Source: Salinicola peritrichatus
GTDB taxonomy: Bacteria > Pseudomonadota > Gammaproteobacteria > Pseudomonadales > Halomonadaceae
Assembly: GCF_003206715.1 (NCBI RefSeq)
Contig: NZ_PZJU01000041.1
Location: forward strand, 76,815-140,492
Length of the DNA stretch: 63,678 nt
Direction: 5' to 3'
The position numbers and the translations under genes were made by a program. The notes under the pieces are model-generated. The model was not told the origin of the DNA, did no database searches, and saw only the letters and a list, made by a program, of their open reading frames with translations. Shown one piece after another: positions 16,754 to 50,310 of the stretch; position 1 is the first letter of the stretch, and every line of letters begins with the position of its first letter.

Positions 16754-16770
16754 GGGACGCGAAGCGTCCC
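16754..16770. repeat. Left-end hairpin of the IS200/IS605 element
   Basis: A 7-bp stem GGGACGC/GCGTCCC with GAA loop lies immediately after the tnpA stop codon. Such hairpins are recognised by the TnpA dimer. Confidence 0.6.
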
Positions 16771-17187: not shown

Positions 17188-17208
17188 AGACCCAGTATAC
17201 TCAAAGCC

Positions 17209-18300: not shown

Positions 18301-18354
18301 GCAGGTTGCATATCCTGCCGTAACAGCGATGGTGTTGTCGCGCTCACGTTGGCA

Positions 18355-19377: not shown

Positions 19378-19456
19378 GCTTATCGTGTCCCTGGCGCAGC
19401 AGCGAATACCATAATGTTCATGAGGGCTCCGTCAGTTCCGGTTCTATCCATCATTG

Positions 19457-23351: not shown

Positions 23352-23728
23352 AACTTAGCGACAACACCTCTGGCTTTTTGCGAGGGAAATGTTTTTCCAA
23401 CGATCTGGTTGCGACGTTCGACCTGGAACCGGCAGATCACGAGTATCGATCGCGTTTCGATGTGCTCACCGAACGGGTGGCCGACAAGCAAGTCATTCAC
23501 GTGGGATGTGTTGATCACGGCTCGGCCGGCATCCGTAAGAAAATGCAGCGCGGCAGATGGCTGCACCAGGCGCTCGACCAAGCGGCCACACGCTGTTTCG
23601 GCGTGGATATAGATGCAGAAGGTATCCACTACATGCGCGAGACGCTGGGCTACAGTGACGTGGCTGCGGCGAACATCTTGGCCTTTGGCGGGAGCTCTTT
23701 CGGGCCAGTGTGCAGGAGTTGCAGATAA
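23348..23728 (+). pseudogene. Truncated SAM-dependent methyltransferase
   Basis: Only the N-terminal ~110 residues look genuine. The SAM-binding strand KQVIHVGCVDHG replaces GxGxG near residue 50, and the second acidic strand is CFGVDIDAEGIHYM near residue 88. After about 23690 the frame runs into sequence that is the 3' end of the opposite-strand glycosyltransferase, and the rest of the methyltransferase is absent. The product would lack the catalytic half. This reads as a deletion/recombination scar. Confidence 0.75.
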
Positions 23729-32360: not shown

Positions 32361-32370
32361 GTCCCGTTCT

Positions 32371-35262: not shown

Positions 35263-36975
35263 TCAGGCAGGGAGGCGAGACAGTTCGCTTTTCTCGAGCG
35301 GCAACAGTTGCCCCCGTTCGAGCCGATAGACATGATCGGCGGCCTGTACCAGCGCGGGCTGGTGAGAGACGGCGATAATGGTGAGTTCGCTCTTGAGGCT
35401 CTGCAGGGTCTTGCTGATCGCTGCCTCCGCTTCCATATCGAGGGCGCTGGTCGCTTCGTCGAGGATCAACAGCTTGGGTCGATGGGCCAGGGCGCGGGCA
35501 ATGACAATGCGCTGGCGCTGGCCTCCCGATAACCGCGAGCCGCGCTCGCCCACCGAACTCTGCATCCCTTCGGGCATCTGGCCGACGAACGACCAGGCGT
35601 CGGCCTGGCGCAGCGCGCGTTCGGCGTCCGCCTCGGTCAGGGTAGGATCGCCGAGCGTGACGTTGGCCAGCACGCTATCGTGCAGCAGCAGCGTCTCCTG
35701 CGGCACATAGCCGATCAGACGCCGCCAGGCGAGCCGGTCGATCCGCGCGATCGGCACGCCGTCGATACGGACCTGACCGGCGCTGGGCTCCAGCAGCATG
35801 CACAGGATATCGAGCAGGGTGGTCTTGCCGGCGCCGGAGGGGCCGATCAGCGTGATGAACGAGCGCGCCGCAATGGTCAGGTCGGTCTCGTTGAGAATCG
35901 CGTGGTCGCCATAGTGAAAGCGTACCTTCTCGAAGGTAATGCCACGTTCGAGGGTCGGGTTCAAGTCGCCGCTGACGGGCTCGGCGTTGTCGCGCGCCGC
36001 CTGCACCGCATCCTTCAGCGCCCAGTAGGCGCTCTCCTGGGTCTGCATCTGCTGATAGCGCCGCTGCAGCTGGTTGAGCTGCATCACTATCCTAGCCAGC
36101 AGGAACACCATGACCATCACCGACGGCAGCGACAGCCCCCACACGACCAGGGCCAGATAGAGGCCAACGGCAATGAACAGCGTCAGGATCGGCTCCTGAA
36201 AGGCCTTCATCCCCTCGCGGGCCAGCACCTGACGCTCCATGGCGCGGTTGAGACGATGGGTCTGGCGCTGCAAAAGCGCGTCGGCGACATCGTAGCGTGC
36301 CATCGCCTTGAGCGGCTTGACCGAGCCCAGCGTATCGGTCAGGCGTGACAGCAGTTCACGCATCAGTCGGGTCTGCTTCTTGCCGGCACGCTTGGAAGCG
36401 CGCACCAGCCGATACAGCATGAGCGACATCAGCACGCCGAGTCCCAGCGAGACCAGCGTCGCCTGCCAGCCGATCATCAGCGCGACAATCGCATAGACCA
36501 CCACCTGAATGAACAGGGCAATGACGTTGGCACAGTGTTCATAGCCAGTGGCGGCGCGGGTAGCCTCGGTAGCCACCGAGTTGGCCATGCCGCCGGTGGG
36601 CTGGCGCAGATAGTGCTCCCAGCGGCTGGCCAGCAGCGAGTGGATCAGTTCGAGGCGCAGGTCGGTGGCGACCCGCGCGACCGTGTAGCCGACCTGGCGG
36701 TTGGCCAGCAGCACCAGCGCGCTCTTGAGCGTCATGCCGATGACGATGATCGTCAGGATGACGCCGATGGTGGTCGGCAAGCCGATGGCGTCCATGATGG
36801 CGAGCACCTTCTGTGAGAAGGCGTTAGGATGATCGTCCTGGCCGAGCGCCACCGATAGCAGCGGCAACACCGTGGTCAGGCCGATCCCTTCAGCGATGCC
36901 TGCGAACAACAGGCAGATCAACATGATGATCGTGCGTTGCGGGTAAAGGCGAAAGAATGCGAAAAGCAGACGCAT
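35263..36975 (-). CDS. ABC transporter, fused membrane and ATPase domains (MsbA-like)
   Basis: 570 aa half-transporter that should act as a homodimer. Residues 1-320 form a six-helix exporter membrane domain. The ATPase follows, with GPSGAGKT (Walker A), RLSGGQRQR (signature), LLILDEATS (Walker B) and the AVSHQ H-loop. It lies 37 bp downstream of the serine palmitoyltransferase gene on the same strand, so flipping of a ceramide or its derivative across the inner membrane is a reasonable inference. Peptide or other lipid export is not excluded. Confidence 0.88.
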   Translation of the reverse strand: MRLLFAFFRLYPQRTIIMLICLLFAGIAEGIGLTTVLPLLSVALGQDDHPNAFSQKVLAIMDAIGLPTTIGVILTIIVIGMTLKSALVLLANRQVGYTVARVATDLRLELIHSLLASRWEHYLRQPTGGMANSVATEATRAATGYEHCANVIALFIQVVVYAIVALMIGWQATLVSLGLGVLMSLMLYRLVRASKRAGKKQTRLMRELLSRLTDTLGSVKPLKAMARYDVADALLQRQTHRLNRAMERQVLAREGMKAFQEPILTLFIAVGLYLALVVWGLSLPSVMVMVFLLARIVMQLNQLQRRYQQMQTQESAYWALKDAVQAARDNAEPVSGDLNPTLERGITFEKVRFHYGDHAILNETDLTIAARSFITLIGPSGAGKTTLLDILCMLLEPSAGQVRIDGVPIARIDRLAWRRLIGYVPQETLLLHDSVLANVTLGDPTLTEADAERALRQADAWSFVGQMPEGMQSSVGERGSRLSGGQRQRIVIARALAHRPKLLILDEATSALDMEAEAAISKTLQSLKSELTIIAVSHQPALVQAADHVYRLERGQLLPLEKSELSRLPA

Positions 36976-37012
36976 GTGCGAGTCCGTGGGCGGTCATGAC
37001 GACCGCCGGTGT

Positions 37013-38215
37013 TCACTCGTGCCCGTGATGGTCGAGCATGGGTTTCAGGGCGGCGAAGGCGGCGATGATCCGGTCGATCTGGGCCGTGTCGTGGGCCGCG
37101 CTGACGCTGATGCGCATCAACGCCCGACCGCCCGGCGTGGCCGGCGGCAGGACCAGATTGACATAGACGCCACGCTCGAGCAGCCCGTGCCAGAAGGCGA
37201 CCCCTTGCTGAGGTGATCCCAGCAGCGTGGCGACCACCGGGCCGGGCTCCGGCCCCAGTTCGAAACCGAGCCGTGCCAGTCCGTGATACAGACGCTCGGC
37301 ATTGGCCCACAGCTGGCGGCGCAGCGCCGGGCGGCTGGCGACGATATCGAGCGCGACACGCACCGATGCGATCGTCGCCGGGGACGGCGAGGCAGTGAAG
37401 ATGTACGGCCGACTGGCGTAGCGGATCATGTCGAGCTGCGGATGATGGCTGACGGCGAAGCCGCCGATGGCGCCCAGGCTCTTGCTGAAGGTGCCGACCA
37501 CGAAGTCGACGTCGGCCTCGACGCCTTCGGCCTCGGCCAGGCCGCGCCCATGGGCGCCCAGCACCCCCAGCGAGTGGGCCTCATCGACCAGCAGGTAACC
37601 CCCATGGCGGCGCTTGACGGCGACGATCTCGCGCAGCGGTGCCTGGTCCCCCAGCATGCTGTAGATGCCTTCCACCACGATCAAGGCATTGGCGGTGCGT
37701 TCGCCCAGACGGCGCAGGCGTTTCTCGAGATCTCCGGCGTCATTGTGACGAAAGCGGATGATGTCGGCACCAGTGAGGCGGCAGGCATCGTAGATGCTGG
37801 CGTGACAGTCGGCGTCGAGCACGATGACGTCGTCGGCACCGGCCAGGGTACCGATCAGGCCGAGATTGGCCATGTAGCCGGTGGAGAATACGACCGCCGA
37901 GGGACGCGCGAAGAAGCGCGCCAGCTCTTCCTCGAGGCGGGTGTGGCTGACGTAGCTGCCGTTGGCCATGCGCGACCCGGTGGTGCCGGTGCCTTCTTGA
38001 TCGAGAGCGTCGTGTGCCGCCGCGATGCAGTCGGGATCGAAAGTCAGTCCCAGGTAGTTATTGGTGCCGGCGAGGATCACCGACCTGCCGTCTACGCGCC
38101 CTTCGGTAGGCGACAGGACTTCATCGATGCGCGTGCCGATCGGGCTGGGTTCTGCCTGGATCAAGGCGTGGCGCGCATCGCTCAGAGACTGGAATTTATC
38201 GAACAGGGACATCAT
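37013..38215 (-). CDS. spt: Serine palmitoyltransferase (alpha-oxoamine synthase)
   Basis: 400 aa PLP enzyme that condenses L-serine with a fatty acyl thioester to 3-oxosphinganine, the first step of sphingolipid synthesis. The PLP Lys is in TFSKSLG (K245), LVDEAHS supplies D211 and H214, and DADCHASIYD gives H138, which stacks on the cofactor. Phrases such as NNYLGLTFDP and IRFRHND match soluble bacterial SPTs of sphingomonads rather than BioF or Kbl. Overlap with an ACP gene (ATGA), plus nearby acyl ligase, reductase and acyltransferase genes, argue strongly for SPT. No biotin genes are near. Confidence 0.88.
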   Translation of the reverse strand: MMSLFDKFQSLSDARHALIQAEPSPIGTRIDEVLSPTEGRVDGRSVILAGTNNYLGLTFDPDCIAAAHDALDQEGTGTTGSRMANGSYVSHTRLEEELARFFARPSAVVFSTGYMANLGLIGTLAGADDVIVLDADCHASIYDACRLTGADIIRFRHNDAGDLEKRLRRLGERTANALIVVEGIYSMLGDQAPLREIVAVKRRHGGYLLVDEAHSLGVLGAHGRGLAEAEGVEADVDFVVGTFSKSLGAIGGFAVSHHPQLDMIRYASRPYIFTASPSPATIASVRVALDIVASRPALRRQLWANAERLYHGLARLGFELGPEPGPVVATLLGSPQQGVAFWHGLLERGVYVNLVLPPATPGGRALMRISVSAAHDTAQIDRIIAAFAALKPMLDHHGHE

Positions 38216-38460
38216 TGGCTCTCGAGCAGCTTATTGATCGCCTGGGCCAACTGGTTGGGCGTGCGGATATCGGCGAGGATGTTCAGAGGGACGGAGATGT
38301 CGAATTCGTCTTCGGCATCCAGCATGAGATCCATCACCTTGACCGAGTCGAGCCCCAGCTCGCTGACCAGGTCGATGTCGGGGTGAAGATTGCTGTCCGG
38401 CGGCGCCAGGCGTTCGAGATGCGCCATCAATCGCTCGAGGATCTGTTCATGTTGCGGCAT
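38212..38460 (-). CDS. Acyl carrier protein dedicated to sphingolipid synthesis
   Basis: 82 aa. The phosphopantetheine Ser is in ELGLDSVKVMDL near residue 44. The acidic helical pattern fits ACPs. Its stop overlaps the spt start, so it probably delivers the acyl chain to SPT, as the ACP encoded next to spt does in Caulobacter. Confidence 0.9.
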   Translation of the reverse strand: MPQHEQILERLMAHLERLAPPDSNLHPDIDLVSELGLDSVKVMDLMLDAEDEFDISVPLNILADIRTPNQLAQAINKLLESQ

Positions 38461-38541
38461 GCGTGCTATGTCCGTTGCTGGCGGCGTGCGCCACGTTGAA
38501 TGTCATGAAAAAGCAGGGTAGTGGAAAAGCCGGTGGCACGG

Positions 38542-39477
38542 TCAGTCCACCGCCCACTGCCGACGATCGCCAAGCGCCTGCTCCAGCGTGATCTGCGGTG
38601 CCCACCCGGTCGCGCGGGTAAACGCATCATTATGGCATGTCCAGTCGTGATGTCGCAGCTCGCGGGCCTTGCCGGGTGTGAGCATCGGCGAACGGTGCAG
38701 CCCGCGCGCCAGCATCAGGTTGACCAGCGCCATGCCGTGCAAGAGGCCGGCGGGAATCGGCAGGCGGCGCACCGGAGCGCCGCGCACGGCAGCGCCGATC
38801 GCGGCGATGCGCGGCCAAGTGTAGCCGCCCGGGTAGCCATCGTGAAGCTCGAAGGGACCGCCGTCGGCGGGAGCGCCAGCCGGGGAGTGACGCAGCCAGG
38901 CCATCACTGCGGCCACCAGGTCGTCGACATGCAGAAACGACAGGCGCGCCTCGCGCGGGCCGGTCATCGGCAGCCAGCCGCGCATCAGCATCTCGAACAG
39001 AGGTTGTAACTCGCGGTCGCCGGGTCCGTAGACCGCCGTCGGGCGAAATACCGTCACCGCCGGCCGCGCTGCCGATGCGACTTGCTGCTCCGCCTGACGC
39101 TTGGAGGCGGCATACCAGGAGAGTTCGGGATGGCGCGCGGCCAGCGAGGACATCAACAGCAGGCGGGCACACCCCTGACGCTGCGTCGCCTCGAACAGCC
39201 GACGGCTACCGTCGACATTGATGCGCCGGAACGTGGCGTCATTGGCGCCACGCACCGCGCCGGCGCAATGGATGACGGCCCCCGCCCCAGCGACCAGCCG
39301 CTCCAGCGCCGTCGTATCGTCGAGCGACCCGCTGACCCAGCGGATATGCGGGTCTTCCGGCTCGGCTGGCACGCGCCGTGTCAGGGCATGCACTTGCACG
39401 CCATCGCTGACCAGCCGGGCGAGCAGCCGGCGGCCGATGAAGCCGGTGGCTCCGGTAAGCGCGACACTCGTGGCCAT
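38542..39477 (-). CDS. NAD-dependent epimerase/dehydratase, CerR-like ceramide reductase
   Basis: 311 aa extended SDR. It starts VALTGATGFIGRRLL (dinucleotide loop); YAASKRQAE is the Y-x3-K motif near residue 135. In Caulobacter, a protein of this family next to spt (CerR) reduces the 3-keto group of the ceramide precursor. Position (81 bp upstream of acp, 5 bp downstream of the acyl-ligase gene) supports the same role here. The ATG at 39477 was preferred over a 54-codon extension lying inside the upstream gene. Confidence 0.8.
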   Translation of the reverse strand: MATSVALTGATGFIGRRLLARLVSDGVQVHALTRRVPAEPEDPHIRWVSGSLDDTTALERLVAGAGAVIHCAGAVRGANDATFRRINVDGSRRLFEATQRQGCARLLLMSSLAARHPELSWYAASKRQAEQQVASAARPAVTVFRPTAVYGPGDRELQPLFEMLMRGWLPMTGPREARLSFLHVDDLVAAVMAWLRHSPAGAPADGGPFELHDGYPGGYTWPRIAAIGAAVRGAPVRRLPIPAGLLHGMALVNLMLARGLHRSPMLTPGKARELRHHDWTCHNDAFTRATGWAPQITLEQALGDRRQWAVD

Positions 39478-39482
39478 GGGGA

Positions 39483-41255
39483 TCAGGGCGCCCCGGTCCC
39501 GGTCAGCGACGCGGCTGGCGGTGCCAGCCCCAGCGACTCGCCACCGTCCTGCAGGTAGCGTCTGCACGCCTCGCTGCGCGAAAGCTTGCCGGACGACGTG
39601 CGCGGCAGCGAGCGGGGGGGGAGCAGGACGACACGGCACGCGACACCGAAATCGCTGCGAATCAGGCTGGTCAGCTCATTGACCAGGTCGCGTCGACGTT
39701 GCGCATCGCTGAGATGGCACTGAACCAGCATGACCACCGCCTCCTCGTCTTCCGCCGCCGCCGTGAACGCGACGACATCGCCATGCCGGATGCCCTGGCA
39801 ACGCCCGGCGAGATGCTCGAGATCCTCGGGCCAGATGTTGCGGCCGTTGACGAAGATCAGGTCGCGATGACGCCCGGTGATGAACAGCCCCTCCGGCGTC
39901 AGGTAGCCCAGATCGCCGGTGTCGAGCCAGCCGTCACGGAGCACCTTGGAAGTCTTTTCGGGATTCTGGAAGTATCCCGACATGACGCTGGGGCCGCGCA
40001 CGGTGACGCGGCCTACCGCACGCTCGGGCAGGGGTTGCCCCTGCTGATCACGAATCACGATGTCATGGCCGGGCAGCGCATGACCGCAGTTGACGAAGCG
40101 GGTAACGGCCATATCGCCACATGCCGAGGCCGGGCGGGCGTGAGCATGATGCTCGAGATGGGCACGGTCGATGCGCTCGACGGCGATGCCCTGACCGAGC
40201 GGCGCAAAGCTGACCGCCAGGGAGCATTCCGCCAGACCGTAGCAGGGCAGAAAGGCCTGCGAGTCGAAGCCGGCAGGCGCGAAGCATTCGGCGAAACGCT
40301 CGAGAACATCGGTACGCACCGGCTCGGCGCCGACGCCGGCGACGCGCCAGCTCGACAGGTCGAGACGTTCGAGATCGCCACTGCGCAGGCGGCGAGCGCA
40401 GATGTCGTAACCAAAGGGCGGCGCAAAGGCGATGGTGCCGCGGTTGCGGCTGAGCAGCGCCAGCCACTGCATCGGTCGCATGGCGAATTCGCGCGCGCCC
40501 AGATAATCCACCGACAGCTGTGATGCCATTGGCCCGAGGACGAAACCGACCAGTCCCATGTCATGGTAGAACGGCAGCCACGAGACGCAACGGTCGTCCG
40601 GGCGCACCCCCAGGCCATGGGTGACGATCCCGCGCAGGTTGGCCATCACGGTGGCCTGATCGATCATCACGCCACGCGGAAAGCCGGTACTGCCCGAGGT
40701 GTACTGCAGATAGGCCAGCTCATCCGGCCGCGACGGCTCGAGAGGCTGCACATTGGCGTCGAGCCGATGAAACGCCTCGCCATCACCGCTGAACAGCAGC
40801 TCGAATTCACTGCCGGCCTCCGTCAGGAAGGACTGCATCTCGGCAGGCGCAATCGCAACGCGGGCCTCGCAGCTGCGCAGCAGGCGCGCGAGACGTTCGA
40901 CATAGCTGGCATGGTTGCCGAGGCTCATGTTGATCGGCAGCGGCACGGGAACGAAGCCCGCATACTGGCAACCATAGAAGATTTCCATGAACAGCGGGCT
41001 GGTATCGGCGATAATGGCCACCTTGTCGCCCCGTTTCAGCCCCAGGCGACACAGGCGGTAAGCCGCCGCCAGGGCACGCTGGCGCAGCTCGGCGTAGCGC
41101 AAGGGGGCGATGAGACGGCCACGGCCATCATGAAAGTTGTAGCCCGTCACACCCTGCGCGGCATAGTCGAGCGCTTCGGCCAGAGTGGTGAAATCGGCCA
41201 GCCGCTGGGGAAGCGGGTTCCGTGTTGACGTTTTGGTGATATAGAGTTCGGTCAT
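39483..41255 (-). CDS. Fatty acyl-AMP/acyl-CoA ligase (ANL superfamily, FAAL-like)
   Basis: 590 aa adenylating enzyme. LQYTSGSTGFPRGVM is the P-loop, DTGDLGYL the A8 region and TSSGKLSR carries the catalytic Lys. FAAL-like features such as WLPFYHDMGLVG are present. It probably activates a fatty acid and loads it on the ACP or CoA for SPT or the ceramide acyltransferase. It is the first gene of the minus-strand run faal-cerR-acp-spt-ABC. Confidence 0.88.
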   Translation of the reverse strand: MTELYITKTSTRNPLPQRLADFTTLAEALDYAAQGVTGYNFHDGRGRLIAPLRYAELRQRALAAAYRLCRLGLKRGDKVAIIADTSPLFMEIFYGCQYAGFVPVPLPINMSLGNHASYVERLARLLRSCEARVAIAPAEMQSFLTEAGSEFELLFSGDGEAFHRLDANVQPLEPSRPDELAYLQYTSGSTGFPRGVMIDQATVMANLRGIVTHGLGVRPDDRCVSWLPFYHDMGLVGFVLGPMASQLSVDYLGAREFAMRPMQWLALLSRNRGTIAFAPPFGYDICARRLRSGDLERLDLSSWRVAGVGAEPVRTDVLERFAECFAPAGFDSQAFLPCYGLAECSLAVSFAPLGQGIAVERIDRAHLEHHAHARPASACGDMAVTRFVNCGHALPGHDIVIRDQQGQPLPERAVGRVTVRGPSVMSGYFQNPEKTSKVLRDGWLDTGDLGYLTPEGLFITGRHRDLIFVNGRNIWPEDLEHLAGRCQGIRHGDVVAFTAAAEDEEAVVMLVQCHLSDAQRRRDLVNELTSLIRSDFGVACRVVLLPPRSLPRTSSGKLSRSEACRRYLQDGGESLGLAPPAASLTGTGAP

Positions 41256-41453
41256 TATTGAGGAGAGTCTCGATCATCGAAGCAGAGGGGGTTGTTATAA
41301 AGACAATGCGTAGCCGTTGGACACACCATAGTCAGTGGTAGTGTCCCGGATGGCCTTGACCGGCTCGATATACCTTTGTTTCTGCGCGCGGTGTGACACA
41401 GACCTTCGATCTGCCGGCGGCGATCCTGGAGGCTGCGGCATGTCATACAATGG

Positions 41454-41906
41454 TCATGCCCAATACTGCATGATCGTTGACTGTATCCGTGCATTGAGCG
41501 CAGCGTCGCTGGCATTGACGACATCCAGCCTGGGGGGGCCGGGCCAGCCGGCATCGGCGAAATCATGGCCATCGAACGTGCGTGGCGTCGCGTAGCGAGG
41601 GACCACATGAAAATGGACGTGAGGATCAACCATCATCAGCATCAGGTAATTGATCTTGTCGTAGGCAAAAGCCTGGCCCAGAGCGGCTTCGATGTCGGCA
41701 GTCACCTCGGCCAGCTCGGTGAATGCCTCGCGGGGCAGGTCGGGAAAGGCAGTTTCCGGTCCCTTGGCAATCAGCACCAGCGCGCCCACGGTCACTTGGG
41801 CCTCGCGAAACAGCACGCTCCAGTGGCGATAGTCATGCACGATATTGCCGGGAGCGCCGAACTTCACCATCGTCGAGTTCGGCTCGGCTTGTGGTTGCGT
41901 ACTCAC
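41454..41906 (-). CDS. HIT-family protein
   Basis: 150 aa. The histidine triad is complete as HVHFHVVPR near residue 95. HIT proteins hydrolyse or transfer nucleotide monophosphates (for example ADP- or CDP-linked compounds). It sits 198 bp upstream of the acyl-ligase gene in the sphingolipid locus, and could turn over an acyl-adenylate or a CDP-alcohol; this is inference. Confidence 0.88.
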   Translation of the reverse strand: MSTQPQAEPNSTMVKFGAPGNIVHDYRHWSVLFREAQVTVGALVLIAKGPETAFPDLPREAFTELAEVTADIEAALGQAFAYDKINYLMLMMVDPHVHFHVVPRYATPRTFDGHDFADAGWPGPPRLDVVNASDAALNARIQSTIMQYWA

Positions 41907-42190
41907 GATCCTTGTCTCACCTCTGCTTATTGTATTCCCAGTATAACGAACAAAACCTTAATGATGTCTTAACATATTTAGCAGGCTACTAGAAATCATC
42001 GGACAGCCTTCTTCCTTTTTCATGGTAGTCGCAGACGCCTTCGCGTTGCAGTGATGCGTGAAGATACCTATGATGCGGCATCCGATGCAAAATTCCTAAA
42101 GCGATCCGCTTGTCTGGCTACGGCTTTCGATCGCCTCCCATCCCGCCGAATTCCGTTGTCGCGCTGCATCATGCTGCTCGGTGTGAGGCG

Positions 42191-43411
42191 ATGGCATGCT
42201 TAAGGCTTCACGTGAATAGTAACGCTCCTTCCGAAGTGCGTGTCTCTTCCGACACTCATCATCACGCCGCCCCCCGTCACTCGCCTGCCGAGATCGACGT
42301 CAGGCCGGTCAAAGGGCGCCGGGATCTGGCTACCTTCGTGCGTTTGCCGGGCGACCTGCTGCGGGATGATCCGCAATGGGTTGAACCGCTGCACCTGGAG
42401 CGACGCCTGCATCTGACCAAGAACCCGGCCTTCGACCATGTCACCTGGCAGGGATTCATCGCCTGGTCTGGCGATAGACCGGTAGGGCGGATCAGTGCCC
42501 AGACTGACAGCCTCCACCGCCAGTATCACGGCGCTGATAGCGGCCATTTCGGCATGCTCGACGCCATCGACGACCCCGCCGTGTTCGCGGCGCTGTTCAC
42601 CGCTGCGGAGACCTGGCTGCGCGAGCGTGGCGCGCGGCACATAACCGGTCCCTACAACTTGACCATCAACGAGGAGTGCGGATTGCTGGTTGACGGTTTC
42701 GAGTGGCCGCCTTCGATGATGATGGGACATGCCGGGCGCTACTATGCCTCCCACGTCGAGGCGCAAGGCTATACGCCCGCCAAGGATCTGCTCGCCTATT
42801 GGATGTCGACACGTGGCGTGAATTTTACGCCAACGATGAGGCGCATGATCGATCGTCGGCGCGAACGAATTCACCTACGCCCCCTGCGTCGCGACCGCTT
42901 CGACGAAGAACTCGATATTCTACGCGACATTTTCAACGACGCCTGGGCAAAGAACTGGGGATTCGTACCGTTCACCGAAGCCGAATTTAACGAGTTGGGC
43001 ACCAGCCTGAAGATGCTGGTGCCGCCGGAGTTGATCCAGATCGCCGAGATCGACGCCAAGCCCGTCGCGTTCATTGTCGGCTTGCCCAACCTCAACGAGG
43101 CGATCGCGCCACTGCACGGACGTTTGTGGCCGGTGGGTTGGCTGCGTCTGCTATGGCGACTCAAGGTGCGCAGGCCAAAGACCGGACGCGTGCCGCTGAT
43201 GGGGGTACGCAGTGAATACCAGTTCAGTCGCCTCGGGCCGACGCTTGCCCTGGTGTTGATCGAGTCGATCCAGGCGTCGCTCATCCGCCATGGCATCGAA
43301 GCCGTGGAAATGTCCTGGATACTCGAGGACAACGCTGGCATGCGAAATATCCTCGAGCATATCGGAACCGACCTCTACAAACGTTACCGTCTCTATGAAA
43401 AGCATCTCTGA
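42191..43411 (+). CDS. GNAT-fold acyltransferase, bacterial ceramide synthase (bCerS)-like
   Basis: About 406 aa, with two GNAT-like halves. Conserved runs include GHFGMLDAIDDPAVFAALF, GPYNLTINEECGLLVDGF, PPSMMMGHAGRYY and the C-terminal EMSWILEDNAGMRNILEHIG. This matches the family containing the Caulobacter ceramide synthase, which N-acylates the long-chain base. No transmembrane segment is seen. The upstream 285 bp is AT-rich and holds promoters for this gene and for HIT. The start is uncertain: ATG 42191 follows GAGG; a longer TTG-initiated form from 42110 is possible. Confidence 0.78.
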   Translation: MACLRLHVNSNAPSEVRVSSDTHHHAAPRHSPAEIDVRPVKGRRDLATFVRLPGDLLRDDPQWVEPLHLERRLHLTKNPAFDHVTWQGFIAWSGDRPVGRISAQTDSLHRQYHGADSGHFGMLDAIDDPAVFAALFTAAETWLRERGARHITGPYNLTINEECGLLVDGFEWPPSMMMGHAGRYYASHVEAQGYTPAKDLLAYWMSTRGVNFTPTMRRMIDRRRERIHLRPLRRDRFDEELDILRDIFNDAWAKNWGFVPFTEAEFNELGTSLKMLVPPELIQIAEIDAKPVAFIVGLPNLNEAIAPLHGRLWPVGWLRLLWRLKVRRPKTGRVPLMGVRSEYQFSRLGPTLALVLIESIQASLIRHGIEAVEMSWILEDNAGMRNILEHIGTDLYKRYRLYEKHL

Positions 43412-44201
43412 AGGGCAGATTGCGGCCGTGGTGCTGGCGGCGGATCGCGGCGCCGACGATCCGGTCACGCGGGAGGCCGGTGTCGCCTGCAAGGCGTTGA
43501 CACCGGTCGCCGGTGTACCGATGCTGCGTCGCGTGTTCGGCGCGCTCGACGGCAGTGCGCGTATCGCGCGTATCTGTCTGGCCGGACCGTCGGCGGCGAT
43601 CATCGAACACGATCCGGTGCTTGGCGAGCTGCTTAGCCGCGACGATGTGAGCTGGGTGGAGAATGCCGCGACGCCCAGCGCCAGCGTCGGCGCCGCCCTG
43701 CGGTCGCTGCCCGATGACGTGCCGGTCATGGTGACCACCGCCGATCATGCCCTGTTGACGCCGACCATCGTCACCGCGTTTGTCGGTCGCGCCCTGGCCA
43801 GCGATGGCGATTTCGTGGTGGGCGTGGCACGCCTGGAGACAGTGACGAGGCGCTTCCCCGATACGCGACGCACGGCGATACGGCTGTCCGACGGTCCCTA
43901 CTGCGGCTGCAACCTGTTTGTCTTCACCACACCGCAAGGCCGCGCGCTCGCCGACTTCTGGCGCCAGGTCGAGCAGCAACGCAAGCGGCCCTGGCGGGTC
44001 ATCGGCGGAGCGCTGGGCTGGGGGGCGGTGCTGCGTTACCTGCTCGGACGTCTGACGCTCGAGCAGGCCCTGGACAGGCTATCCCGCCGGCTCGGCATAC
44101 GCATCCGGGCCGTAGTGCTGGATCACGCCGAGGCGGCCGTCGACGTGGACACGCCTGCCGACCGGCAACTGGTCGAAGCGATTCTCGCCGGCGAACGCTG
44201 A
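43395..44201 (+). CDS. NTP-transferase (MobA-like) domain protein of the head-group module
   Basis: 268 aa. The N-terminal VVLAADRGADDP...CKALTPVAGVPML is the nucleotide-binding loop with an Asp where LAAG is usual. VTTADHALL is the metal-binding Asp region, and DVDTPADRQL the C-terminal signature. It overlaps the bCerS-like gene by 17 bp. It could make a CDP-activated head group, as CpgD (a phosphoglycerate cytidylyltransferase) does in Caulobacter. Donor and acceptor are not readable. Confidence 0.78.
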   Translation: MKSISEGQIAAVVLAADRGADDPVTREAGVACKALTPVAGVPMLRRVFGALDGSARIARICLAGPSAAIIEHDPVLGELLSRDDVSWVENAATPSASVGAALRSLPDDVPVMVTTADHALLTPTIVTAFVGRALASDGDFVVGVARLETVTRRFPDTRRTAIRLSDGPYCGCNLFVFTTPQGRALADFWRQVEQQRKRPWRVIGGALGWGAVLRYLLGRLTLEQALDRLSRRLGIRIRAVVLDHAEAAVDVDTPADRQLVEAILAGER

Positions 44202-44261
44202 CCGGCTAGGAGCCTGGCAGCGCTCGCAGAAGCCGACGGGTCCGAGAAGGAGAGAAGACGT

Positions 44262-45047
44262 TCAGCCGCGCGCGGCCTCCACCGCCGCGTCACGGGTCTG
44301 CCAGCGAGTCACCAGAGCGCGCGCCTGCTCGAGATCCTTGGGAAAGTCGAGTTCCGCCCAGCGCAACCCCTCGATGGACTGGACGAAGATGTTGCCGCTT
44401 GCCGCGAGTTCATCGATCACGCTCAGATACCAGCGCTTGAGCGCCTCAGGGTCGTGCATGATGCGTTCCAGCGTGTCGCGGAACAGCGCCACGCCTGCGC
44501 CGCGGAAGGTCATCATGCCGATCGACTCGCCGTTTACCGTATCCAGATCGAGCGTCTTGCCGACCCGCACCAGGCGATCGCCGTGCAGGCTGACCTTCAT
44601 GTCGTCGGCGTCATAGCGCGCCTTGCGGTCGATGGCCAGGGTGACCGGATGCTGCGGCGCCTCCAGCAAGCGTTCCACCACCGGCTGGTCGAACAGGGTA
44701 TCGCCATTGAGCAGCAGGAAGTCTTCCCGCATCGCCTCGCGCGCCATCCAGCAGCTGGCCAAGTTATCGGCGACCTCATAGAAGGGGTTGAAGACGATAT
44801 CGACCAGATCATCTGCATAGCGATCATGCAGGCATTGCGTCACTTGTTCGATGCCATAGCCGAGTACGACGGTGATCCGCTCGAAACCGGCGGCGAGCAG
44901 ATGATCGATCTGATGTTCGATGACGGTCTTGTCGCCAAGGCGAATGAGACACTTGGGACAATGTTCGGTATAAGGCAATAGACGTTTGCCTTGGCCGGCG
45001 CTGAGAAGGATGGCTTGGCGTGGCCGCGAAGGATTCGATTGCTGCAT
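44262..45047 (-). CDS. Nucleotidyltransferase (LicC/IPCT-like)
   Basis: 261 aa sugar- or choline-phosphate nucleotidyltransferase. LLSAGQGKRLLPYTEHCPKCLIRLG is the complete nucleotide-binding loop with PKCL Lys, and LLLNGDTLFD the metal Asp. LicC and inositol-phosphate cytidylyltransferases share this pattern. It is on the opposite strand to its neighbours, inside the sphingolipid locus. It probably makes a CDP-alcohol for the phosphotransferase at 46340. The 259 bp before its start show nothing recognised. The start could lie up to 50 codons upstream. Confidence 0.82.
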   Translation of the reverse strand: MQQSNPSRPRQAILLSAGQGKRLLPYTEHCPKCLIRLGDKTVIEHQIDHLLAAGFERITVVLGYGIEQVTQCLHDRYADDLVDIVFNPFYEVADNLASCWMAREAMREDFLLLNGDTLFDQPVVERLLEAPQHPVTLAIDRKARYDADDMKVSLHGDRLVRVGKTLDLDTVNGESIGMMTFRGAGVALFRDTLERIMHDPEALKRWYLSVIDELAASGNIFVQSIEGLRWAELDFPKDLEQARALVTRWQTRDAAVEAARG

Positions 45048-45306
45048 GGTGGGTCGATGTCTCGTCTGTATGGTGCTGTGCATGAAGGCCGGGAAGGCGA
45101 GCGCCCGCTCCTTGGTGCTGAGAGCCAGGCGCTGCCTTTCGTTACGGCACTCGACTTTAGCAATTTTACCCTGCTCATTCACTTTTGAATGTATCATCTA
45201 GACCTGAACAAAGGCTTACCCGGTGGATACAGCTTCTGAGTGCAACACGGTTATTGAATCGAATCCAGTTTCCATTCGACCTGCCGCTACCCGACTTCTT
45301 TCCGCG

Positions 45307-46251
45307 TTACGGGACCGAAGCCCAGTGCCAAGTCGCGCTCGAACAGACGTGCAAGCGCCCGGCTTCACTCAGGTAGCGGTGCGTTGCCGTCAGGGTCCAG
45401 CGATCCACCTGGCGCGCGATGCGGAACAGCGTGTACCCGGCAGCCTTCGTCACGTCGTCGTTCGGCAGCAGCGAGGCCGAGGGCGCTCCGAACACCGCTG
45501 CCTGCCCGTGCGGCGTGGGCAGGCAGGCGTCCATGCGGCAATGGGCGTGACCATGCAGGACTAGCTCGACGCCCGCGCGTGCCAGTACGCGACGCAGCGC
45601 CGGCGCATCGGTGAGGCGTTTGCGCCAGTTCACGGCGTTGCGCTGTAACGGATGATGGATCAACAGGATACGAAAGCGACCCTCGCGCCCCGCCCGGTGC
45701 AGACAGCGCTCCAGGCGCACGAGCTGTGCATCACCAAGCGCGCCGGTAGCCAAAGGCCAGTGCGTGGGTATCGCCGTAGAGACGCCGATCAACGCGACCG
45801 GTCCACGATAGCGAACGAAGGGGAAGCGCGGCACAAGCGGTGCATCACTCGGTGCCGTTGCGTCGCCCATCGTTTCACGCATTTCATCATGCATGTAGTC
45901 ACGCCACAGCCCGACGGTGCCGGCCCATGGCGCCGGTGCATAGGCGTCATGATTGCCGGGGACGACGGAGACGTCATGCGGTGCGCCCAGCGCTTGTAGC
46001 CACGTCAGCGCCTGACGACATTCGGCAGGCGTGCCAAGATGCGTCAGGTCGCCGGTCACGGCAATGTGGTCGGGCGCCGCACCGCGCAGGTCGTCGACAA
46101 GCGTCGCCAGCACCTCCGCCCGATGCACGTGCCGGCGCTTGCGTCGCCAAGCCCAGTATCCTAAGGCACGCTTGTTGAACAACTCTTTCCATGGCGGCAT
46201 GTCGAAAGAGGTCAGATGGGGGTCGGAGAGATGCGCCAGGCACAGCGACAT
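45307..46251 (-). CDS. Calcineurin-like metallophosphatase
   Basis: About 314 aa. Motifs in order: HLSDPHL (DxH), VTGDLTH (GD), VVPGNHD (GNHD), LLIHHPL and LHGHAH (GHxH). The dinuclear metal site is complete. In lipid pathways such enzymes remove a phosphate or cleave a CDP-lipid (LpxH-like). Divergent from the CDP-alcohol phosphotransferase gene. The start is not strongly marked by a ribosome site, and a 13-codon upstream ATG is possible. Confidence 0.85.
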   Translation of the reverse strand: MSLCLAHLSDPHLTSFDMPPWKELFNKRALGYWAWRRKRRHVHRAEVLATLVDDLRGAAPDHIAVTGDLTHLGTPAECRQALTWLQALGAPHDVSVVPGNHDAYAPAPWAGTVGLWRDYMHDEMRETMGDATAPSDAPLVPRFPFVRYRGPVALIGVSTAIPTHWPLATGALGDAQLVRLERCLHRAGREGRFRILLIHHPLQRNAVNWRKRLTDAPALRRVLARAGVELVLHGHAHCRMDACLPTPHGQAAVFGAPSASLLPNDDVTKAAGYTLFRIARQVDRWTLTATHRYLSEAGRLHVCSSATWHWASVP

Positions 46252-46339
46252 ATCTTGCCCAGCGAAAATCGGGGGTGCCTTCGTCGTCATCGGCATAATA
46301 TAATCGCAGGATTTTGAAAGGAAAAGGATCATTGGTGGC

Positions 46340-47545
46340 ATGATGACGATACGCGTATATTTCGAAGAGGATTCGCCTGTCCAGTTATGGGGTCTGACGC
46401 CTCGTCAGCGGCTGGTGAAATCGCTGGCACCGCTGTCCAACGTGATCCTCGCGGATGACGCCACGTCCCCCGGGTCCGGCAGCGATCAGCCCGGCACCGA
46501 TATCCTCGTTCTGCGCGCCGACTACATTTACGATCAACGCGTGCTGAATGGCCTGCTGGATAGCCAAACCGGGCAACTCGCGCTCACTGACCCCAGCGAT
46601 GACAGCGTAGTCGCCGTACGGGCATGCGCCGATCAGTGGCCGCCGAATACGCGCCCCTCCCTGGCCAATGGGCCATTGTCGGCGTTGAAACGCTTGGCGC
46701 CTCCCGCCGTGGCCAGCAGCGAGCAGTCGAAACTGCGCAAGTTCGATACGCCCTGGGTGGCCCGGGTGTCGGCGTCGGCACGCCGACGTCTCGAAAACGC
46801 CCTGTTCAGTGCCGCCTACAAGGGCGTGACCGATCTCGTCACCAAATGGGCCTGGCCGCTGCCGGCACGCGCCGTCACCCGGCTATGCGTGCGCTGGGGG
46901 CTGCGGCCCAATCACGTGACGTCGCTGAGCTACGTGCTGGCGATCTTGGCCGGGGTGCTGTTCGGGTACGGCGAGTTCGGCGCCGGCCTGCTCGCCGGCT
47001 GGATCATGACCTTCCTCGATACGGTGGACGGCAAGCTGGCCCGCGTGACGTTGACGTCGAGCCGCTTCGGCAACGTTTTCGATCACGCCTTGGACCTGGT
47101 CCACCCGCCGTTGTGGTACATCGCCTGGGGCGTTGGCCTGGCCGCCGGCACCGCGGATGTGACGATGCTGTTGTGGCTGACCGTGATCGGCTATGTCGGC
47201 GGACGCTTGTGCGAGGGAGGGTTCAAGTTCGCGGCGCCATTCTCGATGTTCACCTGGCGCCCCTTCGACTCGGTCAACCGCCTGGTCACCGCGCGCCGCA
47301 ACCCCAATCTGATCCTGTTGACGCTGGCCTGGTGGGCAGGCTTGCCCTATATCGGCCTGGTCCTGGTCACGCTCTGGACACTGCTCTCGACACTGGTCCT
47401 GGCGGTGCGCCTCGCGCAAGGGCTGCTGGCCCGCGCCAAGGGCGAGCCGCCTCGGGCCTGGCTATACAGCGACGACCCGCGCGCCGGACGCCATCCGCTG
47501 ATGGTACGCTGGTTCACCTTTCCCGCCATCCGCTCGGGCGGGTAG
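46340..47545 (+). CDS. CDP-alcohol phosphatidyltransferase with N-terminal NTP-transferase-like region
   Basis: 401 aa. The CDP-alcohol motif DGKLARVTLTSSRFGNVFDHALD is intact (residues ~228-251), in a six-helix membrane domain starting at about 185. Residues 1-150 resemble a degenerate nucleotidyltransferase (VLRADYIYDQRVLNGLLD), as in fused inositol-phosphate cytidylyltransferase/phosphotransferases. It should transfer a phospho-alcohol from a CDP donor to a lipid, here probably ceramide or its phosphate. Confidence 0.85.
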   Translation: MMTIRVYFEEDSPVQLWGLTPRQRLVKSLAPLSNVILADDATSPGSGSDQPGTDILVLRADYIYDQRVLNGLLDSQTGQLALTDPSDDSVVAVRACADQWPPNTRPSLANGPLSALKRLAPPAVASSEQSKLRKFDTPWVARVSASARRRLENALFSAAYKGVTDLVTKWAWPLPARAVTRLCVRWGLRPNHVTSLSYVLAILAGVLFGYGEFGAGLLAGWIMTFLDTVDGKLARVTLTSSRFGNVFDHALDLVHPPLWYIAWGVGLAAGTADVTMLLWLTVIGYVGGRLCEGGFKFAAPFSMFTWRPFDSVNRLVTARRNPNLILLTLAWWAGLPYIGLVLVTLWTLLSTLVLAVRLAQGLLARAKGEPPRAWLYSDDPRAGRHPLMVRWFTFPAIRSGG

Positions 47546-47555
47546 GGTACCTCCG

Positions 47556-48548
47556 ATGCTTCATCCCGCTGATCTCCCGCGCCGGGTTGGCGTATTGTGC
47601 AATCCGCACAGCGGGCGCAACCGCCGCCATCTGGAGGCGATCCGCCGCATTGCCGAGCAGCAGGCGGCGTTGTTCGTCTATCACGAGGCCACGACGCCGG
47701 AGGCGATTGTCGAGACGTTGCGTGCGTTTCATGCCGAACGTGTCGAACTGATAGCGGTGGTGGGGGGTGACGGCACGCTGCAGGCGGCCCTGACCGGCCT
47801 GCTGCGCGACCTGGCACTACCGGCCGAGACCTTGCCGAAGCTGCTGGTAATTGGCGGTGGCACGACCAACATGAGCGCCGCCGATCTCGGCACGCGCTGC
47901 CAGCCGCCTGTCGCGCTGACCAGGCTGGCGGCTTGGCTCGAACGCAGGGGCCCGGAGCCGCACTCCTGTTCCCGCCCCCTCGTGCGCCTGGCGCTGGGGC
48001 GCCCGGAGGCGGCGCAGTATGGTCTGTTCTTCGGTAGCGGCGCGATCCAGACCGGCGTCGACTACTTCAACAGCCGGGTACGTTGCGGTCCGGTAGCGGG
48101 CGCATGGGGGCCACGCCTGGCCTTCCTGCGGGTAATGGTGTCGATGCTGCGTGGCCGGCCCCATCCGCTGCTGCCTGCTGCGTCGTGCCGGCTGGTGCTG
48201 GATCGCGACGAGGTGCTGGAAGGCCGTTACCTGCTGGTACTGGTATCGACCCTCGAGCGGCTGCTGCTGGGCTCGCGACCGTTCTGGGGAGAACAGTCCG
48301 CGCCGCTGCATTTTACCGCCGTACGCTACCCACCGCGCGCTCTGTGGCGGCGCCTGCCGGCCATTCTGCGCGGGCGTGGCGGCCGCGCCGTACGCGACGG
48401 GGAAGGCTATGCCAGCCGCAACCTGACGTCGCTGCGTCTGGAGCTCGATGCAGGCGGCATCCTCGACGGTGAACGCTTCCGCGCCGAACCTGGCGAGGCC
48501 ATCGAGCTATCGGCGACGCTGGCGATCGATTTTCTCGTCTTCCCATGA
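47556..48548 (+). CDS. Diacylglycerol/ceramide-kinase-like lipid kinase
   Basis: 330 aa. The DAGK catalytic loop VVGGDGTLQAAL is near residue 70, and an IGGGTTNM segment follows near residue 98. The N-terminal GVLCNPHSGRNRR is also typical. The Caulobacter ceramide kinase CpgB belongs to this superfamily; in this locus a ceramide-1-phosphate-forming role is the favoured inference. It starts 10 bp after the phosphotransferase gene, in the same operon. Confidence 0.82.
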   Translation: MLHPADLPRRVGVLCNPHSGRNRRHLEAIRRIAEQQAALFVYHEATTPEAIVETLRAFHAERVELIAVVGGDGTLQAALTGLLRDLALPAETLPKLLVIGGGTTNMSAADLGTRCQPPVALTRLAAWLERRGPEPHSCSRPLVRLALGRPEAAQYGLFFGSGAIQTGVDYFNSRVRCGPVAGAWGPRLAFLRVMVSMLRGRPHPLLPAASCRLVLDRDEVLEGRYLLVLVSTLERLLLGSRPFWGEQSAPLHFTAVRYPPRALWRRLPAILRGRGGRAVRDGEGYASRNLTSLRLELDAGGILDGERFRAEPGEAIELSATLAIDFLVFP

Positions 48549-48574
48549 TTTTCTCGTCCATCCTCCGAGGCCCC

Positions 48575-49531
48575 ATGCGAACCCTCCATTTATCTCCGCC
48601 CGCGGCGCTGGTCGCTCAGGTGGCCGAACAGGCCGCCCGTCCGCAGCCTGAGGGGGTGGCACCGCTGGTGGCCCGCGTGCAGGAGCGTTTTGGTCAGGCT
48701 ACCTGCGCGGTGCTCTTCTACGGCTCCTGCCTGCGTAGCCACGATCCGGGTGATGGCGTGGTCGATCTCTATGCGCTGGTCGACCGCTACGCCGCCGTCT
48801 ACGATCGCCGTCTGCTGCGGCTGGTCAACGCCTGGCTGCCACCCAACGTGTTCTATCTCGAGGCACAGGATGCCCAGGGGCGGCGCCTGCGCGCCAAGTG
48901 CGCGGTCATCACCCTCGATGACTTCGCACAGGGAGCGACACGCTGGTTCGAAAGCTATCTGTGGGGGCGCTTCGCCCAGCCCTGTCGCCTGGCCTATTGC
49001 CGCGATGAAGTCACCCGGATGCGGGTGAACGACGCCTTGGCCGGGGCGGTGCTCGCGTTGTGGCGTGCCGCGCTGCCCTGTCTGCCGGACACCTTCGAGG
49101 CCGCCGAGGGCTGGCAGCAGGCCCTCGCGCTGAGTTACGGTGTCGAGCTGCGACCCGAAGGCGCATCGCGCCCGGCCTCGCTGCTGGCTGGACAGGAGGC
49201 GGAATACCGCGGGCGGCTGGCAGCGGCAGCCGAGGCGCTGCCCGGGCTGTCGGCGACCGGCAACGACCACTATCGCAATGTACTGGAAGCGGCACAGCGC
49301 CGCCGGGGACGACGCGTCTGGCGCTGGCGACGCCGACAGGGACATATCCTGCACATCGCCAGACTGATGAAGGCGGTTCTGACCTTTGAAAACGGTGTCG
49401 ATTACATAGCCTGGAAGCTGGAACGCCACAGTGGCCGGCAAATTTCCGTCAATGACCGCTTGCGCCGCTATCCGTTGCTGTTCGGCTGGCCGCTACTGTG
49501 GCGGTTGCTGCGCGAGCGTGTGCTGCGCTGA
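48575..49531 (+). CDS. Nucleotidyltransferase-like protein of the sphingolipid head-group module
   Basis: 318 aa. FYGSCLRSHDPGDGVVDLYALVD near residues 40-62 looks like the GS-x-DxD signature of the pol-beta/TAM41-type nucleotidyltransferase fold. TAM41 is the mitochondrial phosphatidate cytidylyltransferase, so one possibility is CDP-ceramide or CDP-lipid formation. The match is short and I could not verify it. The C-terminal half has basic helices and a VDYIAWKLERHSG segment. The start at 48575 follows GAGG; an alternative ATG at 48545 overlaps the previous stop. Confidence 0.65.
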   Translation: MRTLHLSPPAALVAQVAEQAARPQPEGVAPLVARVQERFGQATCAVLFYGSCLRSHDPGDGVVDLYALVDRYAAVYDRRLLRLVNAWLPPNVFYLEAQDAQGRRLRAKCAVITLDDFAQGATRWFESYLWGRFAQPCRLAYCRDEVTRMRVNDALAGAVLALWRAALPCLPDTFEAAEGWQQALALSYGVELRPEGASRPASLLAGQEAEYRGRLAAAAEALPGLSATGNDHYRNVLEAAQRRRGRRVWRWRRRQGHILHIARLMKAVLTFENGVDYIAWKLERHSGRQISVNDRLRRYPLLFGWPLLWRLLRERVLR

Positions 49532-49551
49532 TATACGAGGAGACGAGCATC

Positions 49552-50310
49552 ATGAAAGAGTCCTCACCCCCTCCAACTGAAGCAGGGCCTCCTGCCAAGC
49601 GCAGGAAGCCCTGGTACATCAAGACCGGGCGCAGGTTGCTGGTCTCGGTAGATCGCTTTATCGCCCGTCATTCCCGGGTAGGCGATCCCACCTTCTTCGA
49701 TCCTGCCGAGTTTGCCTGGGTCAGTCCGCTGGAAGCCGAATGGCAGGCCATTCGTACGGAACTCGATGACATCCTGCGCGAGCGTGATGCGCTGCCAAAT
49801 TTCCAGGACATTTCGCAGGACCAGGCACGCATCAGCCAGGATGATCGCTGGAAGACCTTCTTCTTCTACGGCTACGGTTATCGCATGGATGACAACTGCG
49901 CGCGTTGTCCCCAAACGACCCGCCTGATCGAAAGCGTGCCGGGAATGACGACCGCGTTCTTCTCGATCCTCGCACCCGGCAAGCACATCCCGCCGCATCG
50001 CGGCCCCTACAAGGGCGTGATGCGTTACCATCTGGGGCTGCGGGTACCGGAACCGCGCGAGCGTTGCCGCATCCGCGTCGGCGACGACACCGGCTACTGG
50101 CGGGAAGGCGGCAGTCTGCTGTTCGACGATACCTACGAGCACGAGGTGTGGAACGACACCGACGGCGTCAGGGTGGTGCTGTTTCTGGATGTCATGCGGC
50201 CTATGCGCTTCCCGGGCGCACTGGTCAACCGCTTGGTCTTCAATCTGATTCGCTTGTCGCCCTACGTGCAGCGCGCGCGCAGGAACCAGCAGCGCTGGTC
50301 GCAGCGCTAG
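49552..50310 (+). CDS. Aspartyl/asparaginyl beta-hydroxylase family protein (LpxO-like)
   Basis: 252 aa. HIPPHRGPYKGVMRYHLGL contains the iron-binding HxxPHxG, and FDDTYEHEVWN the second His. The family includes LpxO, which 2-hydroxylates a fatty acyl chain of lipid A. As the last gene of the sphingolipid run, hydroxylation of the ceramide acyl chain is a plausible job. GAGGAG 9-10 nt before the ATG at 49552 supports this start. Confidence 0.85.
   Translation: MKESSPPPTEAGPPAKRRKPWYIKTGRRLLVSVDRFIARHSRVGDPTFFDPAEFAWVSPLEAEWQAIRTELDDILRERDALPNFQDISQDQARISQDDRWKTFFFYGYGYRMDDNCARCPQTTRLIESVPGMTTAFFSILAPGKHIPPHRGPYKGVMRYHLGLRVPEPRERCRIRVGDDTGYWREGGSLLFDDTYEHEVWNDTDGVRVVLFLDVMRPMRFPGALVNRLVFNLIRLSPYVQRARRNQQRWSQR

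Follow-up and report, generated by a model that had tools for sequence, protein, structure and literature searches.

A probable phosphosphingolipid pathway of the Caulobacter kind within an envelope island of Salinicola peritrichatus

The closest described relative of the locus treated here is the ceramide phosphoglycerate (CPG/CPG2) cluster of Caulobacter crescentus, CC_1152-CC_1168. In the available parts of its descriptions (PMC11324152; PMC12275187), this cluster joins ceramide genes to six enzyme types for CPG2 synthesis, CC_1153, 1152, 1158, 1159, 1160 and 1161 (Olea-Ozuna 2024, PMC11324152), and includes LptC2, LptF2 and LptG2. The same source reports contiguous clusters in Azotobacter vinelandii and Pseudomonas luteola, where the CC_1158-type phosphoesterase is said to be missing. 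In Escherichia coli BL21(DE3) the ceramide genes form the group yghO-aasR-cerR-acpR-spt, YghO being given as the counterpart (orthologue) of Caulobacter CC_1154/CerS in the part of PMC9386255 available. Here we analyze a stretch of 63,678 nucleotides from the 4.62-Mb genome of Salinicola peritrichatus (contig NZ_PZJU01000041.1, positions 76,815 to 140,492; "the window"), whose sphingolipid locus occupies 35.3-50.3 kb. We consider it likely that this locus encodes all steps of a phosphosphingolipid pathway resembling the CPG/CPG2 one of Caulobacter, set in a horizontally acquired envelope island that runs from lptF to about 50.6 kb and also carries a glycosyltransferase module and a diverged lptFG pair. 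The biosynthetic locus itself is another member of the published kind of cluster; five ceramide genes and all six CPG2 enzyme types are common to it and Caulobacter. What is new is the genomic context and the Halomonadaceae arrangement, in which LptF2/G2 is absent, the lptFG allele is inherited together with the island, and a glycosyl module and a hydroxylase are linked to the cluster. A preliminary description had seen a ceramide locus in a Halomonas-like host and called bacterial sphingolipids little studied in gammaproteobacteria. The host belongs to the Halomonadaceae but to the genus Salinicola, and gammaproteobacterial clusters are already published for A. vinelandii and P. luteola, as are the ceramide genes of E. 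coli BL21. A title-level literature search on Halomonas or Salinicola sphingolipid synthesis turned up nothing pertinent among the titles listed.

The five-gene rhodobacterial ceramide set is complete in the window, with acpR directly before spt:

37013..38215, minus strand: spt, serine palmitoyltransferase (SPT; model NF047599, 637.7 against a cut-off of 500; DEAHS and TFSKSLG motifs; tree)
38212..38460, minus strand: acpR, specialised acyl carrier protein (PF00550, 3.4e-12; GLDS motif; 43% identical to BL21 AcpR)
38542..~39477 (start inferred), minus strand: cerR, SDR/epimerase-type keto reductase (PF01370, 7.4e-29; 49% identical to the BL21 homologue)
39483..41255, minus strand: aasR, fatty acyl-AMP/acyl-ACP ligase (NF006624, 803.9 against 600; 50% identical to BL21 AasR)
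42191..43411 (start codon uncertain, open reading frame from 42110), plus strand: cerS, tandem-GNAT N-acyltransferase (55% identical to BL21 YghO; AlphaFold2 model, pLDDT 86.6)

The preliminary description had named these five genes and an ABC exporter, and each lies at or very near the place it gave; the overlap of spt with acpR, which measures 4 nt (ATGA), and the divergence of the acyltransferase from the spt operon were likewise seen correctly. That divergence was presented as a difference from the Caulobacter locus. It is the annotated order in E. coli BL21, which has the same five ceramide genes with cerS divergent as in the window. BL21 differs in that a second lptFG adjoins spt, unlike the window, and none of the six head-group types is annotated beside its ceramide genes in the stretches examined.

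E. coli BL21 Spt shares 62% identity with the window SPT, whereas Kbl reaches 37% and BioF 32%. A tree of 39 rows places the window SPT within a group of 35 SPT rows (support 100/99), while E. coli BioF, E. coli Kbl and the genome's own two paralogues lie outside; two of the checks that the preliminary description had proposed, a profile search and a tree against BioF and Kbl, thus both came out in favor of SPT. It weighs on the other side that the 35 rows were picked by similarity to the window SPT and include no characterised SPT. By the curated model, the identity to BL21 Spt and the tree, 37013-38215 is predicted to encode a true SPT. The acyltransferase is less directly recognised: at a threshold of 0.001 no Pfam family matches cerS itself, and a PDB profile search started from the CerS alignment brought a single weak GNAT match, but the AlphaFold2 model resembles tandem GNAT enzymes. 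The genes of the locus are not chance reading frames, as the NF047599 match above its cut-off and a closely similar gene order in other genera both show. Ceramide synthesis by the locus is a well-supported prediction.

The region from 43.4 to 50.3 kb, which the preliminary description had left unidentified in an otherwise sound listing of genes, is occupied by a set of head-group genes rather than by flanking genes alone. De novo ceramide synthesis stands, in view of the BL21 counterparts Spt and YghO, but a ceramide-only locus does not. The head-group genes, a linked hydroxylase and the exporter are:

43395..44201 (start inferred), plus strand: CofC/MobA-like nucleotidyltransferase, CC_1153-type (PF12804, 1.7e-11; in 58 of 80 related loci, see below)
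44262..45047 (start inferred), minus strand: CpgD-like CTP:phosphoglycerate cytidylyltransferase, CC_1152-type (PF12804/PF00483; active-site residues placed by eye)
45307..46341 (start uncertain), minus strand: calcineurin-like phosphoesterase, CC_1158-type (PF00149, 4.6e-14; motifs intact)
46340..47545, plus strand: CDP-alcohol phosphotransferase, CpgA/CC_1159-type (PF01066, 4.6e-9; motif intact)
47556..48548, plus strand: predicted ceramide kinase, CpgB/CC_1160-type, DAGK-type (PF00781, 1.7e-15; GGDGT)
48545..49531, plus strand: Tam41-fold CTP transferase, CpgC/CC_1161-type (PF09139, 7.8e-5; model pLDDT 88.6)
49552..50310 (start inferred, open reading frame 49498-50310), plus strand: LpxO/OlsC-family Fe/2-oxoglutarate acyl hydroxylase, third branch (PF05118, 1e-56)
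35263..36975, minus strand: MsbA/PglK-like ABC exporter, candidate sphingolipid flippase (ABC_tran, 2.6e-31)

The first six match the Caulobacter CPG2 enzyme types one to one. The CDP-alcohol transferase motif D-x2-DG-x2-AR-x8-G-x3-D-x3-D is found in the window protein and in 87 of 87 homologues, and the five best Foldseek matches of the 48545-49531 model are all Tam41 (E 5e-9). PMC12275187 assigns ceramide kinase activity to CpgB and CTP:phosphoglycerate cytidylyltransferase activity to CpgD, and PMC13228409 names nine CpgD residues in contact with CTP and phosphoglycerate. Placed by eye, seven of the nine (G12, R16, N90, N110, G111, S170 and W201) have identical counterparts in the 44262-45047 protein, with T93 replaced by Ser and T88, a backbone contact, by Ala. 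Because all six CPG2 enzyme types are present, the predicted product is ceramide phosphoglycerate or a close relative, that is, a phosphosphingolipid rather than bare ceramide. Several observations count against so specific an assignment. Orthology to the CC_ genes was drawn from enzyme types, synteny with P. luteola and E. coli BL21 rather than from direct alignment to Caulobacter; at a fixed offset only G12 and R16 of the nine CpgD contacts match, the other five needing shifts of one or two residues judged by eye without an alignment to CpgD; the GGDG motif (as a regular expression) occurs in only 48 of 73 kinase homologues; the PF09139 match lies below the Pfam cut-off; and the published head-group steps are themselves only partly assigned, which makes CPG2 the most likely of several head groups.

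From the gene identities, motifs, folds, synteny, empty sites and co-occurrence reported here, we infer substrates, product, step order and export route as follows. AasR would load a fatty acid onto AcpR, SPT would join this AcpR-borne fatty acid to serine, and CerR and CerS would finish dihydroceramide. The DAGK-type kinase would then give ceramide-1-phosphate, which the Tam41-fold enzyme probably activates with CTP, while the CpgD-like enzyme would make CDP-glycerate. The CDP-alcohol transferase, the CofC-like enzyme and the phosphoesterase would together add phosphoglycerate. Hydroxylation of an acyl chain probably falls to the LpxO/OlsC-family enzyme, and the ABC exporter would flip the lipid.

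A close SPT is found in 6 of 275 Halomonadaceae genomes, the window genome included, and five of these six also have the head-group cassette. These bearers are the window genome, Salinicola salarius 1A01339 (G185) and Halomonas ventosae 1_TX (G115), each with all 13 genes, and two further genomes (G125 and G127) with 12 of 13. The missing gene is cerS: the interval from aasR to the CC_1153-type gene has none, and none was found in the further stretches examined around it; close relatives of the cassette are thus not always complete at the locus. The gaps without cerS, L040:9684-10635 and L041:8824-9877, lie in otherwise similar cassettes. In the sixth SPT genome (G005) only the ceramide genes and a hydroxylase were found in the 19.9-kb stretch examined. 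With the head-group cassette in just 5 of the 275 genomes, and a close SPT in 6, the locus is no general adaptation to salt, and the earlier suggestion that it serves membrane stability in salt finds no support.

In named genomes we confirmed at least 545 stretches with relatives of the CDP-alcohol transferase and kept 80 loci for counts. Within about 10 kb these hold a Tam41-like gene (69), the kinase (66), cerS (61), the CofC-like gene (58), a CpgD-like gene (31) and the phosphoesterase (22), but flanks of 10 kb cut many of the 80 loci and absences there are possibly artefacts. Gene order is near-identical in loci of P. luteola, Azotobacter (A. chroococcum) and Stutzerimonas, which read SPT-ACP-CerR-AasR / CerS-CC_1153-CC_1152 ... 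CDP-alcohol transferase-kinase-Tam41-hydroxylase with the ABC exporter on the spt side; in these clusters LptF2/G2 occupies the very position that the CC_1158-type phosphoesterase takes in the Halomonadaceae. In a CDP-alcohol-transferase tree of 88 rows the Halomonadaceae clade stands beside Pseudomonadaceae and two betaproteobacterial metagenome-assembled genomes (100/99). An alphaproteobacterial donor, suggested for other gammaproteobacteria in the available part of PMC11324152, is not favored here: the four outside-class rows, taken as alphaproteobacterial, lie apart in this tree, although they are few and long-branched and the argument is weak.

Each of the four other bearers has a relative of the hydroxylase at its cassette, as do 15 of the 80 related loci, including 9 of 12 Pseudomonadaceae loci. 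The window hydroxylase is neither OlsC proper (NF052565, 278.9 against a cut-off of 450) nor LpxO proper (NF033391, 138.7 against 500), and a separate true LpxO (516.8 with NF033391) is encoded elsewhere in the genome. No ornithine-lipid acyltransferase is evident in the genome, where the two matches to PF13444, which we take to be the OlsB family, are an exosortase-associated acyltransferase and a match of 25 residues. The simplest reading is that 49552-50310 encodes a dedicated sphingolipid acyl hydroxylase. Caulobacter differs in this respect: the gene to which N-acyl hydroxylation is attributed in the available part of PMC11324152 is of the DesA family and lies elsewhere in the genome, whereas the window gene is inside the cluster. 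A title-level literature search joining LpxO with sphingolipids brought up one review. Two adjacent convergent LpxO/OlsC-like genes follow the cassette in Stutzerimonas kunmingensis (L206:1159-2610), and P. luteola (L208) is alike. The ABC exporter adjoins spt in the four other bearers (78-94% identical), and P. luteola, A. chroococcum and S. kunmingensis each have a homologue of 62-63% identity next to the cassette. The Caulobacter cluster has a flippase gene, CC_1166; in the window the spt-linked exporter is the candidate for such a role.

The locus lies within an insertion of about 36 kb (window 14.7-50.6 kb) between lptG and bfr; in contrast to Caulobacter, the cluster is embedded in an island with a glycosyltransferase module. 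The insertion is absent from all six SPT-less Salinicola examined because lptF-lptG there runs straight into the bfr region. Three non-bearers from the genera of other bearers (G122, G124 and G092) likewise have bfr about 1.0-2.3 kb from lptG, which brings the empty sites to 9 of 9 non-bearers. The left end of the island is formed by the genes for the two permease subunits of lipopolysaccharide (LPS) transport:

12541..13623, plus strand: lptF, canonical type, strongly diverged from the genus allele (TIGR04407, 370.9 bits against 230)
13620..14678, plus strand: lptG, canonical type, strongly diverged from the genus allele (TIGR04408, 385.6 against 240)

The window LptF is 99% identical to that of the bearer G185 but 65-68% to those of the six non-bearing Salinicola, and for LptG the values are 97% and 59-61%. 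Against the same six genomes the neighboring PepA gives 86-94% and LptD 85-87%. Between the two Salinicola bearers, the order is reversed, with LptFG (97-99%) above PepA (94%) and LptD (about 85%, 84.7%). The same break is seen between bearers and non-bearers elsewhere, at 60-66% for G115 against G092 and 65-67% for G125 against G122 and G124, whereas within the latter genus (g10) the two bearers agree at 90-93% and the non-bearers at 91-92%. Since LptFG of non-bearers from different genera (G184 and G092) are 68-70% identical, the bearers' pair departs from that of their congeners to an extent similar to, or greater than, that seen between genera. This break in three genera, with PepA and LptD ordinary, argues that lptFG were exchanged or strongly diverged together with the island. 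Three results do not fit so neatly: the LptF tree puts the non-bearers G122 and G124 into one clade with the bearers (95/96), the LptG tree does not resolve the bearers, and in G127 lptFG and the cassette are on different contigs, so that their adjacency is seen only in the other bearers. We regard the pairwise identities as clearer evidence than the trees. A Pseudomonas origin of the pair is rejected, as its identity to the canonical LptFG of P. luteola and S. kunmingensis is only 43-47%, and so is replacement of the whole Lpt system, given the ordinary LptD (LptA, LptB, LptC and LptE were outside the comparison).

An LptF/LptG pair is near the CDP-alcohol transferase in most related loci (LptF 65 of 80, LptG 68 of 80). 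The five bearers, by contrast, have no such pair at the cassette, and, unlike Caulobacter, the window genome has no second pair elsewhere: each of the five bearers has two PF03739 matches, whereas P. luteola, A. chroococcum, S. kunmingensis and G005 have four. A tentative interpretation is that a mobile island makes a phosphosphingolipid and swaps in its own lptFG allele, with one LptF-LptG serving both LPS and sphingolipid in place of LptF2/G2, and that the island's LpxO/OlsC-family enzyme is the sphingolipid acyl hydroxylase; we hold this combination to be possible rather than probable. Because LpxC is present in five of five bearers, the island LptFG should still carry LPS. This also agrees with an alternative to which we give nearly an even chance, namely that the diverged lptFG goes with the glycosyltransferase module, acting on the LPS core, and has no connection with sphingolipid export; the pair would then have been swapped to fit a core altered by the adjacent glycosyltransferases. 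LPS is still made by gene content, and glycosyltransferases, a kinase-like and an oxygenase-like reading frame adjoin lptG. On the other hand, the two modules always co-occur in the family (5 of 275) and are therefore inseparable here, and the ELM1 gene of the module also stands beside the sphingolipid cassette in Pseudomonas loci that have a separate lptF2/G2.

The glycosyl module comprises:

14875..15945, plus strand: kinase-like reading frame (weak ABC1/APH Pfam matches, 8.8e-4 and 2.1e-3, below curated cut-offs; 92% in S. kunmingensis)
15956..16672, minus strand: 2-oxoglutarate-Fe(II) oxygenase-like reading frame (PF13640, 3.9e-5, below cut-off)
17209..18300, plus strand: IS605-type transposase inside the module (PF01385, PF07282; not in the S. 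kunmingensis copy)
18355..19377, minus strand: family 2 glycosyltransferase (PF00535, 6.3e-33)
19457..21937, minus strand: ELM1/GtrOC1-family putative glycosyltransferase (PF06258, 1e-52)
22047-23351, plus strand, and 23650-24957, minus strand: two GT4 glycosyltransferases (PF00534/PF13692)

The ELM1 protein is found in exactly the five head-group-cassette genomes of the 275. The oxygenase-like frame is present in five of five bearers, 72-87% identical in the other four, the G127 copy being on the lptFG contig; the kinase-like frame has no match in G115 at 1e-15. In the bearers lptFG, the oxygenase-like frame, the ELM1 protein and glycosyltransferases of families 2 and 4 precede or flank the sphingolipid cassette, divided between two contigs in G127. 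Window positions 14680-16691 and 18288-20107 (about 3.8 kb) are 95.5-95.6% identical at the DNA level to Stutzerimonas kunmingensis (L206), a member of another family, whose copy of these genes stands near its own sphingolipid cassette; the window copy is split by the IS605 element. This level of identity points to a recent cross-family transfer of 14680-20107. Between the module and the cassette (28815-35235) lie an SNF2-type helicase and a UvrD-like helicase with ankyrin repeats, also present in G185 and without a match in the stretches examined from G115 and G125. Along the cassette, 45501-49000 is 98-100% identical in DNA to Salinicola salarius, most other 500-base bins are 85-96% identical (one 98.8%), and the hydroxylase is 71-72%. 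Such unevenness has the appearance of a recombination mosaic.

A CDP-alcohol-transferase homologue is also present on 16 of 72,556 plasmid records. The two plasmids examined, Diaphorobacter pDCB2 (IncP, typed conjugative) and Pseudomonas pPNP1 (IncP, typed non-mobilizable), both have head-group cassettes. With the window, pPNP1 shares the CDP-alcohol transferase, cytidylyltransferase, kinase, phosphoesterase, the hydroxylase with ELM1 directly after it, and also aasR, cerR and an acyl carrier protein; pDCB2 shares CDP-alcohol transferases, cytidylyltransferase, kinase, phosphoesterase and ABC exporter. Both differ in having their own lptF/lptG, and their CDP-alcohol transferases are 57% (pPNP1) and 44% (pDCB2) identical to that of the window. 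No spt was found on either plasmid in the stretches shown. On pDCB2 (L210) two CDP-alcohol transferases, an lptF/lptG pair, a desaturase and an ABC exporter lie in one head-group cassette.

Returning to the product, the same pathway could end in another head group, such as phosphoinositol, phosphocholine or phosphoglycerol. Among named models, those closest to the CDP-alcohol transferase are indeed inositol-phosphate synthases, and the CpgD-like protein has matches to CTP:phosphocholine and inositol-1-phosphate cytidylyltransferases. However, CpgD itself is described as nearest to those cytidylyltransferase families, eight of its nine contacts are identical or hydroxyl-conserving when placed by eye, and the six CPG2 gene types are all present together, which makes another head group improbable. 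We think it very unlikely that the locus makes only ceramide beside unrelated neighbors at 43.4-50.3 kb. The five ceramide genes would by themselves be enough for ceramide, and G005 has them with no head-group genes in the stretch examined, but the head-group genes accompany the ceramide genes in the four other bearers, and the same company recurs in several phyla (Tam41-like 69, kinase 66 and cerS 61 of the 80 loci). That 37013-38215 encodes another alpha-oxoamine synthase (BioF, Kbl or CqsA) can be set aside with near certainty: all belong to one superfamily and the BioF model gives 338.6 bits, but this is below its cut-off of 426, as are the autoinducer-synthase score (220 against 428) and that of Kbl, while the SPT model is above its own, and the tree and the identity to BL21 Spt agree in ruling it out.

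How sphingolipids reach the outer leaflet in Gram-negative bacteria is an open question in the literature. One genus split by presence of the island, and by the allele of a single-copy LPS permease pair, provides natural paired strains for asking whether Lpt carries sphingolipids. Three linked genes, for the hydroxylase, the ABC exporter and the ELM1 glycosyltransferase, are concrete candidates for steps that have no assigned enzyme. Finally, head-group cassettes on plasmids, one of them typed as conjugative, suggest that a kind of outer-membrane lipid can be passed from one bacterial family to another.

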